The translations under genes and the position numbers were made by a program. A stretch of DNA of 35,329 nt from an archaeon 13_2_20CM_2_53_6 (GTDB lineage Archaea > Thermoproteota > Bathyarchaeia > 40CM-2-53-6), in contig MNDT01000006.1 of NCBI GenBank assembly GCA_001915065.1, positions 1 to 35,329 of the forward strand, written 5' to 3'. Below the pieces are notes generated by a model that saw only the letters and a program-made list of their open reading frames with translations, was not told the DNA's origin and searched no databases. Of the stretch, positions 206 through 8,311 are shown piece by piece (the stretch's first letter is position 1; the number at the start of each line of letters is the position of its first letter).

Positions 206-363
206 GCTGGGACCAACTTGAGTCCCGAACTTTAGCTTTCCCCAAGAGCGTGCTGTTCGCGGCTTGCAATTCGCCGAAGGTTCCTGGTCTCCAGATCTCT
301 CAACTTGTTCTCGCTTTCTTTAGGCCTTCTACTGAACAGTTTGGTCTGGTTGGTTTCATGGCC

Positions 364-4579: not shown

Positions 4580-6553
4580 TTGAGGAAGCCGATCTTACTC
4601 TTAGTGCTCGCTCTATCCTCCGTGTTCATTCTCCCAGTAGCCACAGATAACCCAGGAAGTAAGCCCGGTCCTGTTCTCAACGCGGGTCCAATTGGAACGA
4701 CCGACTTTCCTTGGACTATGTTTCACTATGATGCTCAGCGTGCTGGGGTCACTCCCGCCTCTGGTCCCGCCTCAGCGAGCCTCATGTGGACTTACACGAC
4801 TGGAAATCTTGTCTATCCATCAGCGGCGGTTGCGGATGGTTACGTTTTCATCCCGTCCTATGATGGATCTGTCTACGCGCTCGACGAGTACACGGGCTCC
4901 CTAATCTGGTCATTTCCGACCGGCGGGAACATCATAGGAACCCCCGCGGTCGGCAACGGGATGGTCTACGTCTCGTCCAAGAACGGTTACGTGTACGCTC
5001 TCAACGAGCAGAACGGTGCGGTAAACTGGAGGATTGCGAACGATAATCTCACTCCGGTCACGTCTTCTCCCGTCCTGGCTGATGGCATCCTCTTCTACGG
5101 TACGTTTCTGTCGCCCTCCTCAGGCTTCGCCGAAGTGCTTGCCGTGGATCCGCAGACGGGCGCGGTGATCTGGAAGAATACGGGCATTCCGGACTACGTC
5201 GAAGGCTCCCTTTCCGTCAGTAATGGGCGGGTCTTCTTTGGAGTGGGCGCTTTCAACCCGGCTTTGATAATTGCTCTCAACGAGACGACGGGAGCCCAGC
5301 TGTGGAGCTATGGTACTGGGATAAGAACAACAGTTACCAGCGCTCCTGCCGAGGCCTATGGTAACGTGTACGTTGGTCTCGACGGCAACAGGTTCCTGGC
5401 TCTCAACCAGGCCACCGGCAGTCTTGTCTGGTCCTTCAACACGGGGGGCGGGACAAATGCCACGACCCCGGCTATCTATAATGGGATTGTCTATTTCGGG
5501 ACTAGCGCGGGAATCGTCTATGCGCTCAACTCAACAACCGGTACCACTATCTGGCGATATCCAGCAGCAGGCACGATTGGGCCGGTAACGTCTTCTCCAG
5601 CCCTCTCACTGGGATCCAACACTCTCTATGTTGGATCTAATGATCGCTACCTGTACGCGCTGAGCATGACGACTGGAGCGTTGCGGTGGAGATACCTTGC
5701 GGGTGGACAAGTCTCCTCTTCGCCCGCCGTAGCCGACGGCCGGGTCTTCTTCGGCTCAAAGGACCGCAGGGTCTATGCGCTGGGTGCGACCGTGCCGAGA
5801 CTATTCGACACGATAACTTCTAGCTCCACGGTCCTCGAGCCGGGACAGAATGCGACATTGACGATAACCGTGAGGAACAGCACAGCCCCACAGGCGGGAA
5901 CCAACCTGACTTTCACAACACCACCGCCAATAAGCTGGATGCTCTCCCAGCCCGTGCCAACTGGCATCGGGATCTATCAGGTGAACTTTACAGCGCCACC
6001 GCCCAGTCAGATAACTTCCACTGTAATCATAACTGTCCAAGTCACTGCGAGTTTGACAGGATATCTTAGTGCGACGAACCAGACGAGTATTACCGTGAAC
6101 CCGTTTCCATTGTTGACCGTCGCAGTCTCGCCGAAACCGTCCTCGATTACGCCTGGTGGAGAGATTACGTTGATGATCAAGGTCACTAATGGGACTGATA
6201 CGGTTCCGGGAGCCTCGCTCAATTTCTCGTCCTCAGTACCGGGGGGCAGCTTCTACTCGATGACCGATTCGGGTAATGGAAACTATACGGCGATATTCAG
6301 TACGCCGCTTCAGAGCTCGAGTCCTGTTGTGACGGTTCGTGCTTACAAGAGCGAGTTTACGCCCGGACAGGGCCAGACTACGGTTGTGGTTAACGGGGTT
6401 CCGAACCTGACCACCCTCAAAGTGTCCGGAATACCCATCTTTCTGTTGGTGGCGGGAGGCGGTATCCTCTTCCTGTTGATCCTCGCGGTTCTTGTTCGGA
6501 AGAAAAAGTCTGATTATCATCATATTGCTCCTCAGCCTTCGTTCTCATACTGA
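4580..6553 (+). CDS. Surface-anchored PQQ-type beta-propeller protein with Ig-like domains
   Basis: 657 residues from a TTG start. Residues 1-22 form a signal peptide. Residues about 45-405 hold repeated PQQ-like blades with the VYALDxxTGxxxW pattern, seen at least eight times (VYALNEQNGAVNW, VYALNSTTGTTIW, LYALSMTTGALRW), enough for a complete propeller. Two Ig-like/invasin-type beta-sandwich modules follow (about 410-505 and 508-605). A C-terminal transmembrane helix (about 618-640, GIPIFLLVAGGGILFLLILA) and a basic RKKK tail anchor it outside the membrane. Propellers like this act as binding scaffolds; none of the cofactor residues of a quinoprotein dehydrogenase can be assigned. Stop TGA, just ahead of the 5S promoter. 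Confidence 0.85.
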   Translation: MRKPILLLVLALSSVFILPVATDNPGSKPGPVLNAGPIGTTDFPWTMFHYDAQRAGVTPASGPASASLMWTYTTGNLVYPSAAVADGYVFIPSYDGSVYALDEYTGSLIWSFPTGGNIIGTPAVGNGMVYVSSKNGYVYALNEQNGAVNWRIANDNLTPVTSSPVLADGILFYGTFLSPSSGFAEVLAVDPQTGAVIWKNTGIPDYVEGSLSVSNGRVFFGVGAFNPALIIALNETTGAQLWSYGTGIRTTVTSAPAEAYGNVYVGLDGNRFLALNQATGSLVWSFNTGGGTNATTPAIYNGIVYFGTSAGIVYALNSTTGTTIWRYPAAGTIGPVTSSPALSLGSNTLYVGSNDRYLYALSMTTGALRWRYLAGGQVSSSPAVADGRVFFGSKDRRVYALGATVPRLFDTITSSSTVLEPGQNATLTITVRNSTAPQAGTNLTFTTPPPISWMLSQPVPTGIGIYQVNFTAPPPSQITSTVIITVQVTASLTGYLSATNQTSITVNPFPLLTVAVSPKPSSITPGGEITLMIKVTNGTDTVPGASLNFSSSVPGGSFYSMTDSGNGNYTAIFSTPLQSSSPVVTVRAYKSEFTPGQGQTTVVVNGVPNLTTLKVSGIPIFLLVAGGGILFLLILAVLVRKKKSDYHHIAPQPSFSY

Positions 6554-6561
6554 TTTTCCGG

Positions 6562-6574
6562 GAAGGCTTAACTA
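6562..6574 (+). promoter_or_regulatory. Probable 5S rRNA promoter
   Basis: GGAAGG followed by CTTAAC, resembling a BRE plus TATA box, lies about 29 nt upstream of the 5S 5' end near 6597-6600. The spacing fits an archaeal transcription start. Confidence 0.5.
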
Positions 6575-6643
6575 GGCGTTTTCACAGCCGGGTTCTGGGG
6601 TTGGCGGCCATAGCTGGGAGCTAGGACCCGTACCCATTCCGAA

Positions 6644-6973
6644 AGAACGAGGAAAGCACCATGAATACAGGCAGGAACGAAATGCTGCAATGGACACGGA
6701 CACCACAGACCCGGTTACATCAGCAGCCGAGCCGTATTCGTCTCTAACACAAACAAGGCGCTCCTAGAAAGCGTTCGAGCAATGCTCGACAGGTTAGGCA
6801 TAGAGTCCAAATTGTACTTGGACGCAAGAGCCGGAGTCCGCAAGAGCACAGTCACAAGCTGGAAACTAACCATCCTCGGCCGGGACAATCTGCTTCGATT
6901 CCGGGATAAGATCGGATTCAGCGATCTCGGAAAGTCAACTACGCTGAAGGCGATGCTTGACTCGTACCGGAAG
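6644..6973 (+). other. Intron in 5S rRNA with BHB splice motif
   Basis: The proposed splice sites A6643/A6644 and G6973/C6974 lie in a bulge-helix-bulge fold. The central helix is TCCG (6638-6641) with CGGA (6968-6971), 4 of 4 pairs. The bulges are AAA (6642-6644) and AGC (6972-6974). The inner helix is ACGAG (6647-6651) with CTCGT (6961-6965), plus one outer G-C pair across an A-A mismatch. The outer exon helix is partial. This is the geometry cut by archaeal tRNA splicing endonuclease, which also excises 16S and 23S introns in Thermoproteota. Confidence 0.85.
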
Positions 6974-7009
6974 CACGGAAGTGAATCTCCCAGGCGATCT
7001 CGGTGGTAG
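6665..7009 (+). pseudogene. Decayed LAGLIDADG homing endonuclease in the 5S intron
   Basis: Starting after the in-frame TGA at 6662-6664, this frame reads through a domain typical of the C-terminal half of LAGLIDADG enzymes. It contains YISSRAVFVSNTNKALLESV, then LGIESKLYLD, KLTILGRDNLLRFRDKIGF and SDLGKSTTLKAML. The N-terminal catalytic motif is missing. Upstream, another frame reads AAMDTD where this frame reads GHHRPG, so a frameshift may have broken a motif resembling AAMDTDG. No good start codon precedes the conserved part (first ATG 6782). The stop TAG at 7007-7009 lies inside 5S exon 2. I read this as a dead or minimal remnant of the intron's homing gene. Confidence 0.75.
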
Positions 7010-7141
7010 TGTGGTGCGAGAGCCCACGCGAAGCCCTGACCGCTGCCAACTCCATTTTCGAACTTGGAGTCGGAGACCGTCTCCTGATCTCGACTGGATT
7101 GTTATCTGTGAGTTGTGAAGCTGGTTTTGCACACTATCAAT

Positions 7142-7149
7142 CTTTATAA
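7142..7149 (+). promoter_or_regulatory. TATA box for the DUF1512 gene
   Basis: TTTATAAC about 40 nt upstream of the start codon at 7184, giving a predicted transcription start near 7170 and a short leader. Confidence 0.55.
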
Positions 7150-7183
7150 CATTCAGCCGAGAAGTATCCTTTAGATTCCGTTC

Positions 7184-8311
7184 TTGCTGACCGTTGTCCC
7201 GCTTGATCTGCTCGGCGACCTCTTCGGCAACGTAGGCAATATTTCGCAGATCGCGTTCACGCTTCTCTTCATCCTGCTCTTCTTCGGTTTTGGTCAGAAG
7301 CTGCAGATGCGCCAGTACATGTGGGACATTGACAGGGGTCTACGACGCCTTGATGTCATCCGGGGCCAGGCCAAGGATTTGACGTTGAAGACCGTGAAGG
7401 AAATCGGCAAGCCGACGTCTGATCCTATGCCCCAGCTGAACGTGCTCATGGAACAGTTCTTAATCACGCCCGTCGACATGGACCCGTCTGGGATCGTGAG
7501 CAAGTTCGACCATCTCCTGGATGTTCACGAAATGAAGTTCAAGGAGGATGTTCACAGGATTGCACCGAGCGCTGATCCGGCCCAGCTGAACAACCTCTCG
7601 AATCTTGTGGAGGCGTCCTGGGCGTTGAACACGATCTACCGCATCATACGCCACTTCTACCTGTTGGGGAAGAAGACGAACAGTATCTTCATCATAATCC
7701 AGCTCCAAGCGTTGCTTCCTTTGATTATGCAAGAGGCGGAAGCCTATCTGGGCGCAGCGCGGGCCTTTGCTGAGGGTCAGCCGATAGGGGATGGCATTGG
7801 TCCTTTGGTCGCGTCGAGGCTGATGAAGGACAAGTCACAGCGGAAGGTCGAGAAGGACGTTATCGTGGCGGAGACGACCTTGGAGGATCGCAGGATTATT
7901 GCTCTGAAGGCTGAGGGTCCGGGAGGCAATGTCGGGAAGCCGGGGGACGCTATACGGTCGTTGATAGAGGAGAATGGAGGGAAGGTCTCGATGGTTGTCA
8001 TGATTGACGCGGCGCTCAAGTTTGAGGGGGAGAACAGTGGCGAGGTAAGCGAGGGTATTGGAGCCGCGATCGGGGGTATTGGGACGGAGCGGTTCAAGAT
8101 CGAGGAGGAGGCGACCAAGAACAAAATTCCGGTCTACGCGGTTATTGTGAAGGAGAGTATCTTGGAGGCTATTACTCCTATGCGGAAGGAGATCTTGGAG
8201 GCGGGGGAGAAGGTTCTTGAGAGGATTAAGAGTCTGATCGTGGAGCGGAGCAAGCCCGGCGATACTATTATAGTGGCCGGGATCGGCAACACTATCGGCA
8301 TAGGCCAGTAG
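7184..8311 (+). CDS. DUF1512 family archaeal membrane-anchored protein
   Basis: 375 residues from a TTG start (7184). It matches the archaeal DUF1512 family in length and arrangement: an N-terminal transmembrane helix (about residues 20-40, IAFTLLFILLFFGFG), a long soluble helical domain with LRRLDVIRGQAKDLTLK, and a C-terminal part that ends in a Gly-rich TIIVAGIGNTIGIGQ. Function is unknown, and the family's spread across many archaea suggests a housekeeping role at the membrane. The gene at 8324 follows after 12 nt, so the two probably form an operon. Stop TAG. Confidence 0.8.
   Translation: MLTVVPLDLLGDLFGNVGNISQIAFTLLFILLFFGFGQKLQMRQYMWDIDRGLRRLDVIRGQAKDLTLKTVKEIGKPTSDPMPQLNVLMEQFLITPVDMDPSGIVSKFDHLLDVHEMKFKEDVHRIAPSADPAQLNNLSNLVEASWALNTIYRIIRHFYLLGKKTNSIFIIIQLQALLPLIMQEAEAYLGAARAFAEGQPIGDGIGPLVASRLMKDKSQRKVEKDVIVAETTLEDRRIIALKAEGPGGNVGKPGDAIRSLIEENGGKVSMVVMIDAALKFEGENSGEVSEGIGAAIGGIGTERFKIEEEATKNKIPVYAVIVKESILEAITPMRKEILEAGEKVLERIKSLIVERSKPGDTIIVAGIGNTIGIGQ

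Follow-up and report, generated by a model that had tools for sequence, protein, structure and literature searches.

An interrupted 5S gene and its uninterrupted counterpart

The 35,329-nucleotide (nt) stretch of DNA examined in this work (contig MNDT01000006.1 of the archaeon 13_2_20CM_2_53_6, class Bathyarchaeia; referred to below as the window) comprises bases 1-35329 of contig 1 of a draft genome (G000; 1.79 Mb in 69 contigs, 80% complete), and it contains a 5S ribosomal RNA (rRNA) gene whose two parts are separated by an insertion of 330 nt, within which lies the remnant of a LAGLIDADG homing endonuclease gene (Table 1). In an original prediction made from the letters of the window, this gene had been described as split by an intron with a bulge-helix-bulge (BHB) splice motif. 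The two halves of the gene and the limits of the insertion had been placed correctly: when the sequences on its two sides are joined (positions 6597-6643 and 6974-7052), they are identical at all 126 positions to the uninterrupted 5S gene of a genome from the same genus (G007). The interpretation of the insertion as an intron is backed by this identity and by covariation of the splice motif in eight lineages, described below. By our own count, the insertion point lies between positions 46 and 47 of the Escherichia coli 5S rRNA.

The Rfam comparison that had been proposed with the original prediction leads to the same result, as the raw locus obtains 16.6 bits with the 5S model RF00001, which is under the cut-off of 38 bits, and the 5S gene of G007, identical to the joined exons, obtains 83.5 bits (expectation value, E, 1.5e-18). 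At the curated cut-offs of Rfam there is no match in the window, and a weak RF00001 match at positions 6943-7051 was rejected, as it is misaligned, with some intron sequence taken for helix I. The sequences surrounding the gene are also closely similar in G000 and G007. In the upstream flanks, 288 of 300 and 1442 of 1500 bases are identical, and in the downstream flanks 100 of 100 bases are identical, after which an insertion or deletion is encountered (over 1500 bases downstream, 1326 are identical, 86 are different and 176 are in gaps, end gaps included). Based on this similarity, the intron was recently either gained in one of these genomes or lost from the other.

With regard to the number of 5S genes, a second intact copy, which the original prediction had named as evidence that would count against it, was not found: in G000 (an 80% complete assembly) there was no other match up to E 10, and no second 5S above the Rfam cut-off was present, among the matches listed, in the 12 intron-carrying genomes that are at least 90% complete (G004, G012, G014, G016, G017, G018, G021, G023, G027, G028, G031 and G218). 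One bin that is 52% complete (G010) contains both an empty and an occupied 5S locus. However, these two loci have flanks that diverge by about 9% on the downstream side (300 bases) and 17% on the upstream side (450 bases), and due to this divergence the bin, judged by sequence, probably represents two organisms.

Table 1. Positions of the 5S gene, the intron, the elements of its splice motif and the neighbouring genes in the window (^ marks a cut or insertion point)
Feature	Positions	Strand	Basis or remark
5S rRNA exon 1	6597-6643	+	With exon 2, matches uninterrupted 5S of G007 (126/126)
Intron, 330 nt	6644-6973	+	Same-site insertions in relatives; alignment to the intact G010 intron
5S rRNA exon 2	6974-7053	+	First 100 nt past the insertion site identical to G007 (100/100)
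Central helix, 5' strand TCCG, in exon 1	6638-6641	+	TCCG/CGGN in 18/18 introns
5' bulge AA^A	6642-6644	+	Inferred cut 6643/6644
Inner helix, 5' arm GAACGAG	6645-6651	+	6/7 positions pair with 6961-6967; the second is an A-A mismatch
Inner helix, 3' arm CTCGTAC	6961-6967	+	Partner of 6645-6651; covaries between families
Central helix, 3' strand CGGA, intron end	6968-6971	+	Pair probabilities 0.98-0.99 in the window precursor
3' bulge AG^C	6972-6974	+	Inferred cut 6973/6974
LAGLIDADG homing endonuclease remnant	6661-7009	+	PF14528, E 2.2e-12; 6689-7006 against the relatives' profile, E 2.2e-56
PQQ-type beta-propeller protein gene, upstream neighbour	4580-6553	+	PF13360
DUF1512 gene, downstream neighbour	7184-8311	+	PF07431 and PF23542

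Distribution of the insertion and the splice motif at its ends

Separate patterns for the 5' and the 3' side of the insertion were scanned over 256 genomes of the class, where they matched in 20 and 17 genomes, respectively. After removal of a match in G216 and of a second match in G012, neither of which is 5S, an insertion at the same site (CCGAA^CWCGG) is found in 19 of the 256 genomes; the order, with 38 genomes, accounts for 16 of these carriers and the other three (G083, G086 and G218) belong to other families. Both ends are available for 18 of the insertions, whose lengths vary from 17 to 414 nt. In G015 the contig ends inside the intron and only its 5' side is seen, and this genome is kept among the 19 carriers and excluded from the counts of folding and covariation. 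A scan with the 3' pattern over a sample of 398 genomes from the phylum gave 6 matching genomes, each of them from Bathyarchaeia; scans of this kind detect sites near the known ones and divergent sites would escape them. The insertion is absent from close relatives of the carriers, for which an alignment of 16 empty loci was made (G036 and G011 being left out of 18). Further, a tree was built from the downstream sequences at 18 loci, of which 9 have the intron and 9 lack it. Presence of the intron requires 6 changes on this tree, at least 5 of which are forced by well-supported branches, and its clustering does not exceed that of shuffled labels, as 290 of 500 shuffles gave a number of changes as low as this.

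The matches listed from a wider scan of contigs are mostly bacterial 5S genes without interruption, of the type CCGAATACGG (from Omnitrophota and others), and five viral contigs that matched the pattern were rejected, as they do not resemble 5S. In Parcubacteria Athens0714_16 (L135), a 5S-like start stops after CCGAAT and a second 5S-like start is found about 135 nt further on.

In all 18 two-ended introns, exon 1 ends in TCCG-AA and the intron ends in CGGN-AN ahead of the C of exon 2. The CGGN is CGGA or CGGG in 17 of them and CGGT in G086; by position, the central helix has four standard pairs (G-U counted) in these 17 of 18 introns and three in G086, and it is accompanied by two 3-nt bulges, AA^N and AN^C, in every case. 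The inner helix is of a different kind, as its arms differ between families, viz. GAAC/GTAC (with one A-A mismatch), ACCC/GGGT, GCGA/TCGC, GCC/GGC, GTGA/TCAC, CTT/AAG, ATAA/TTAT and ACGA/TCGT. If the first three pairs are considered for the 11 distinct arm pairs, then 29 of 33 are Watson-Crick, while shuffling of the 3' arms among introns gives a mean of 13.0 of 33 and none of 100000 trials reaches 29. When each of the 8 lineages is represented by a single intron, 23 of 24 inner pairs are seen versus 9.0 expected, which was equalled by 3 of 100000 shuffles. The arms of this helix thus vary and yet they pair, indicating that the fold is conserved rather than the sequence.

Predictions of folding are partly in agreement with this motif. 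In local folds by RNAfold with 14 + 6 nt of exon, the four central pairs form in 12 of the 18 introns (window included) and three form in G086, and in the window precursor the pair probability of the inner helix is 0.56 for the first pair and 0.94-0.99 past the mismatch. For the introns of family f4, energy folding favours another register. The exon-side helix, considered by position, has all four pairs (CCGT/ACGG) in 5 introns from families f3 and f4, three of four pairs (one A-C mismatch) in 10 introns, among them that of the window, and no more than two in the 3 introns from other families; local folding does produce this helix for G027 and G037. Hence, of the fold described in the original prediction, the TCCG/CGGA central helix is upheld, whereas the exon-side helix carries a mismatch, and the motif of the window is, as judged by its sequence, a slightly relaxed BHB. 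Enzymes that could act on such a motif are encoded by G000, in which two paralogues of the splicing endonuclease EndA (E 2.9e-27 and 2.2e-13) and a gene for the ligase RtcB are present. The two paralogues are what a two-subunit splicing endonuclease requires, and an enzyme of this type, found mainly in TACK archaea, tolerates varied bulge lengths according to the excerpted text of PMC7714728.

The intron-encoded endonuclease and the proposed pathway

The degraded LAGLIDADG gene (Pfam family PF14528) inside the insertion of the window was overlooked in the original prediction. Alignment of the window intron with the intact intron of G010 gives 293 identical and 37 different positions and 80 in gaps, and the endonuclease copy of the window has suffered a net loss of 80 nt, including the LAGLIDADG motif, and its frame is shifted. 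Intact introns are seen in G010 and G004 (both 410 nt, same genus) and in G086 (414 nt, another family), and they encode endonucleases of 142, 142 and 131 amino acids (aa), respectively. The LAGLIDADG_3 domain is recognized in these proteins with E 7.4e-13, 4e-11 and 3.6e-11 and it was found in all four of the relatives' frames that were scanned; each intact endonuclease has a single motif, YIRGFVDGEG or YLRGFADGEG. The proteins of G010 and G086 are 47% identical. Between G004 and G010, nonsynonymous divergence (dN) is 0.146 and synonymous divergence (dS) 1.16 (dN/dS about 0.13), and as dN is far below dS, selection has acted on the endonuclease protein. In the remaining part of the window remnant, compared with G010, dN is 0.061 and dS 0.52, which indicates that the endonuclease was lost recently.

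The lengths of the introns within the genus form a deletion series of 410, 330, 248, 56, 36 and 26 nt in which both ends are spared. The short introns are those of G012 (L035; 56 nt), G014 (L039; 36 nt) and G008 and G016 (L034 and L040; 26 nt), and the 36-nt intron corresponds to the 56-nt intron minus 20 nt. As these internal deletions spare both ends, the endonuclease gene is dispensable and the splice site seemingly is not.

The reading frame of the endonuclease bears a close relationship to the 5S gene. In the same-genus introns its last 11 codons and its stop, a TAG of the 5S gene, are inside exon 2, and due to this the full protein can be made only from unspliced RNA; the frame of G086 ends at the last three bases of the intron. 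Further, both of the lineages that carry the endonuclease (L047 and L069) have a GAGG translation signal near the start of the intron, placed within the 5' arm of the inner helix or where this arm ends. Folding for splicing would hide this signal, and a given transcript would then be either spliced to 5S or translated to endonuclease; judging from the placement of GAGG, splicing and translation may be mutually exclusive.

Outside 5S, 19 other LAGLIDADG matches are seen in the order; 11 of them fall in open frames that are 1009-1560 aa long, and the frames of the other 8 have 233-324 aa. Examples of distant relatives of the endonuclease in long frames are seen at G004:C13:115859-116110 and G015:C42:20112-20360, and the 11 matches in the longest frames are possibly inteins. 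No viral relatives of the endonuclease were found.

In intron-free 5S genes, loop C reads TTCCG-AACA-CGGAA, in which two palindromic arms enclose four bases; the intron is situated in the middle of these four (AA^CA). The CGGAAG with which the window intron ends is a repeat of the CGGAAG of exon 2. LAGLIDADG enzymes with a single motif act as dimers on near-palindromes, which they cut at positions four bases apart, and in view of this habit the loop C palindrome is the target to be expected. If the intron homes in this manner, then the single-motif endonuclease, likely as a homodimer, would cut the loop C palindrome in the DNA of an intron-free 5S gene, and repair would copy the intron into the centre of the 4-nt AA^CA. 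If the resulting locus is transcribed as a whole, then in the precursor the CGGAAG at the 3' end of the intron would pair with TTCCG of exon 1 to give the bulge-helix-bulge, EndA would cut at 6643/6644 and 6973/6974, and ligation of the exons by RtcB would yield a normal 5S of 127 nt. The same palindrome would in this way be both the DNA target and the splice helix. After fixation of the intron, the endonuclease gene would decay through internal deletion while the splice ends stay, and the window holds such a decaying copy with a broken remnant of the endonuclease.

Based on the comparisons described above, it is very probable that the insertion in the only 5S gene found is a mobile archaeal BHB intron, which would be excised by EndA and its exons joined by RtcB. 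A wider proposal can be made only tentatively, and we consider it rather doubtful in its entirety, namely that the 5S genes of Bathyarchaeia have a mobile intron family of their own, in which the loop C palindrome is used twice (as homodimer target and as splice helix), the endonuclease is completed by 5S sequence, and splicing and translation are exclusive.

Alternative explanations and comparison with known systems

A number of observations weigh against the interpretation that the insertion is an excised intron. Some of these concern the motif: each of the eight two-ended introns of the genus has A-A as its second inner pair; central pairs reach a probability of at least 0.7 in only 11 of the 18 full precursors and are altogether missing from the local folds of G023, G028, G031, G083 and G218; the exon-side helix of the window, CCAT/ACGG, has its A-C mismatch; and in the strict form this helix does not exceed a probability of 0.06 in any of the 18 full precursors, with RNAfold favouring, for the window, a widened internal loop that is flanked on its outer side by helix III of native 5S. 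Others concern the data, as most of the genomes are draft assemblies, and in the locus tree two long branches (G018 and G020) meet and one row is 46% filled.

If the insertion were kept in the mature 5S, similar to the 108-nt insert of Halococcus morrhuae, then it would be an expansion segment, and such retained insertions do exist, with loop C sites listed for bacteria in the excerpted text of PMC7812874. The shortest forms seen here (17-36 nt) are hairpins of potentially tolerable size, and the 5 of 18 introns in which energy folding misses the central helix are all short. However, the archaeal insertions in that text are confined to a single site (104.1-105) and the inserts are without noticeable complementarity to the core, whereas here the end of the insert is complementary, by position, to exon 1 in 18 of 18 cases; the inserts also extend up to 414 nt with a protein gene, and they are missing from close relatives. 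Retention is thus quite improbable. The supposition that the exons, after excision by EndA, stay unligated and that 5S functions as two pieces we regard as very improbable; fragmented rRNAs exist in bacteria, and ligation is deduced here from the presence of a gene, but that gene, for RtcB, is present, and a 5S in two pieces, although possible, is not known to us in any organism.

It could also be argued that the locus is a disrupted, dead copy and that an intact 5S gene resides in a missing part of the genome, as G000 is only 80% complete and the 52% complete bin G010 holds an intact and an interrupted locus. This explanation is highly improbable in view of the lack of a second 5S above the cut-off, among the matches listed, in the 12 more complete carriers, the unchanged exons in comparison to the intact sister gene, and the divergence of about 9-17% between the flanks of the two G010 loci, which seemingly come from two organisms. 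A self-splicing group I or group II intron would be next to impossible. LAGLIDADG genes occur in archaeal group I introns as well (PMC6125680, in the excerpted text), but no group I or group II match was obtained up to E 10 in window positions 6500-7150 or up to E 1 in four related loci, and the ends covary as a BHB. Introns of 17-36 nt are, in addition, too short for a ribozyme.

If the interpretation of this insertion as an excised intron is correct, then 5S joins the RNAs that host archaeal introns, and 5S maturation, and hence the assembly of ribosomes, relies in these organisms on the enzymes of tRNA splicing. At a single site, a natural series is then available that leads from an intact mobile element to an intron of 26 nt within one genus and of 17 nt in another family. 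Such introns would also account for overlooked 5S genes, as is illustrated by the score of the window with the standard Rfam model. For the circular genomes of Heimdallarchaeum the authors state, in the excerpted text of PMC8813620, that 5S was not predictable with existing models, and a hidden or interrupted gene is conceivable there. Separately, on a contig of the class (L069, positions 308-362, minus strand) a transfer-messenger RNA model matches with 21.8 bits (E 1.1e-5; cut-off 47) where ARAGORN reports no gene; one possibility is a tRNA gene interrupted by a long intron.

To our knowledge, 5S is the only rRNA without described introns. Phrase searches of open-licence papers revealed no described 5S intron, although subscription journals are not excluded as a source. 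The 5S expansion segments resemble the present case in that an insertion lies within the 5S gene, in loop C in some bacteria, and they differ from it in their archaeal site and, in the cases tested, in being retained in mature 5S. An intron is not described in the excerpted text of PMC7812874, which does warn that some 5S inserts might be excised. The rRNA insertions of the candidate phyla radiation (CPR) likewise include LAGLIDADG genes, and in that survey none of 645 5S genes had inserts of at least 100 bp (excerpted text of PMC11270868). In archaea, 16S and 23S but not 5S are observed to be processed through circular forms, as stated in the excerpted text of PMC12918454.

The endonuclease I-DmoI, which comes from a 23S intron of Desulfurococcus, has two motifs in chains of 188-200 aa, whereas the present proteins have 131-142 aa and one motif, and for this reason a dimer is expected. 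I-DmoI is the best structural match of an AlphaFold2 model of the G010 protein (E 5.3e-5, TMq 0.51); the model is the best of five, with pLDDT 73 (others 46-66), from only 4 input sequences. By sequence, likeness is weak, as I-DmoI is matched at E 0.14 or worse and the best match in the PDB, 2dch, has E 0.023. A close parallel is provided by the BHB introns of 16S in Thermoproteales, which, in the excerpted text of PMC4496867, likewise have a BHB at the site and LAGLIDADG genes with one or two motifs, and occur as coding forms, remnants and short hairpins of less than 50 nt. Those introns occupy 13 loci in the 16S of thermophilic Thermoproteales, and here there is one locus in the 5S of Bathyarchaeia. 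Hence, the novelty of the present intron is its host RNA, 5S, and its remaining features are known from the archaeal 16S introns.
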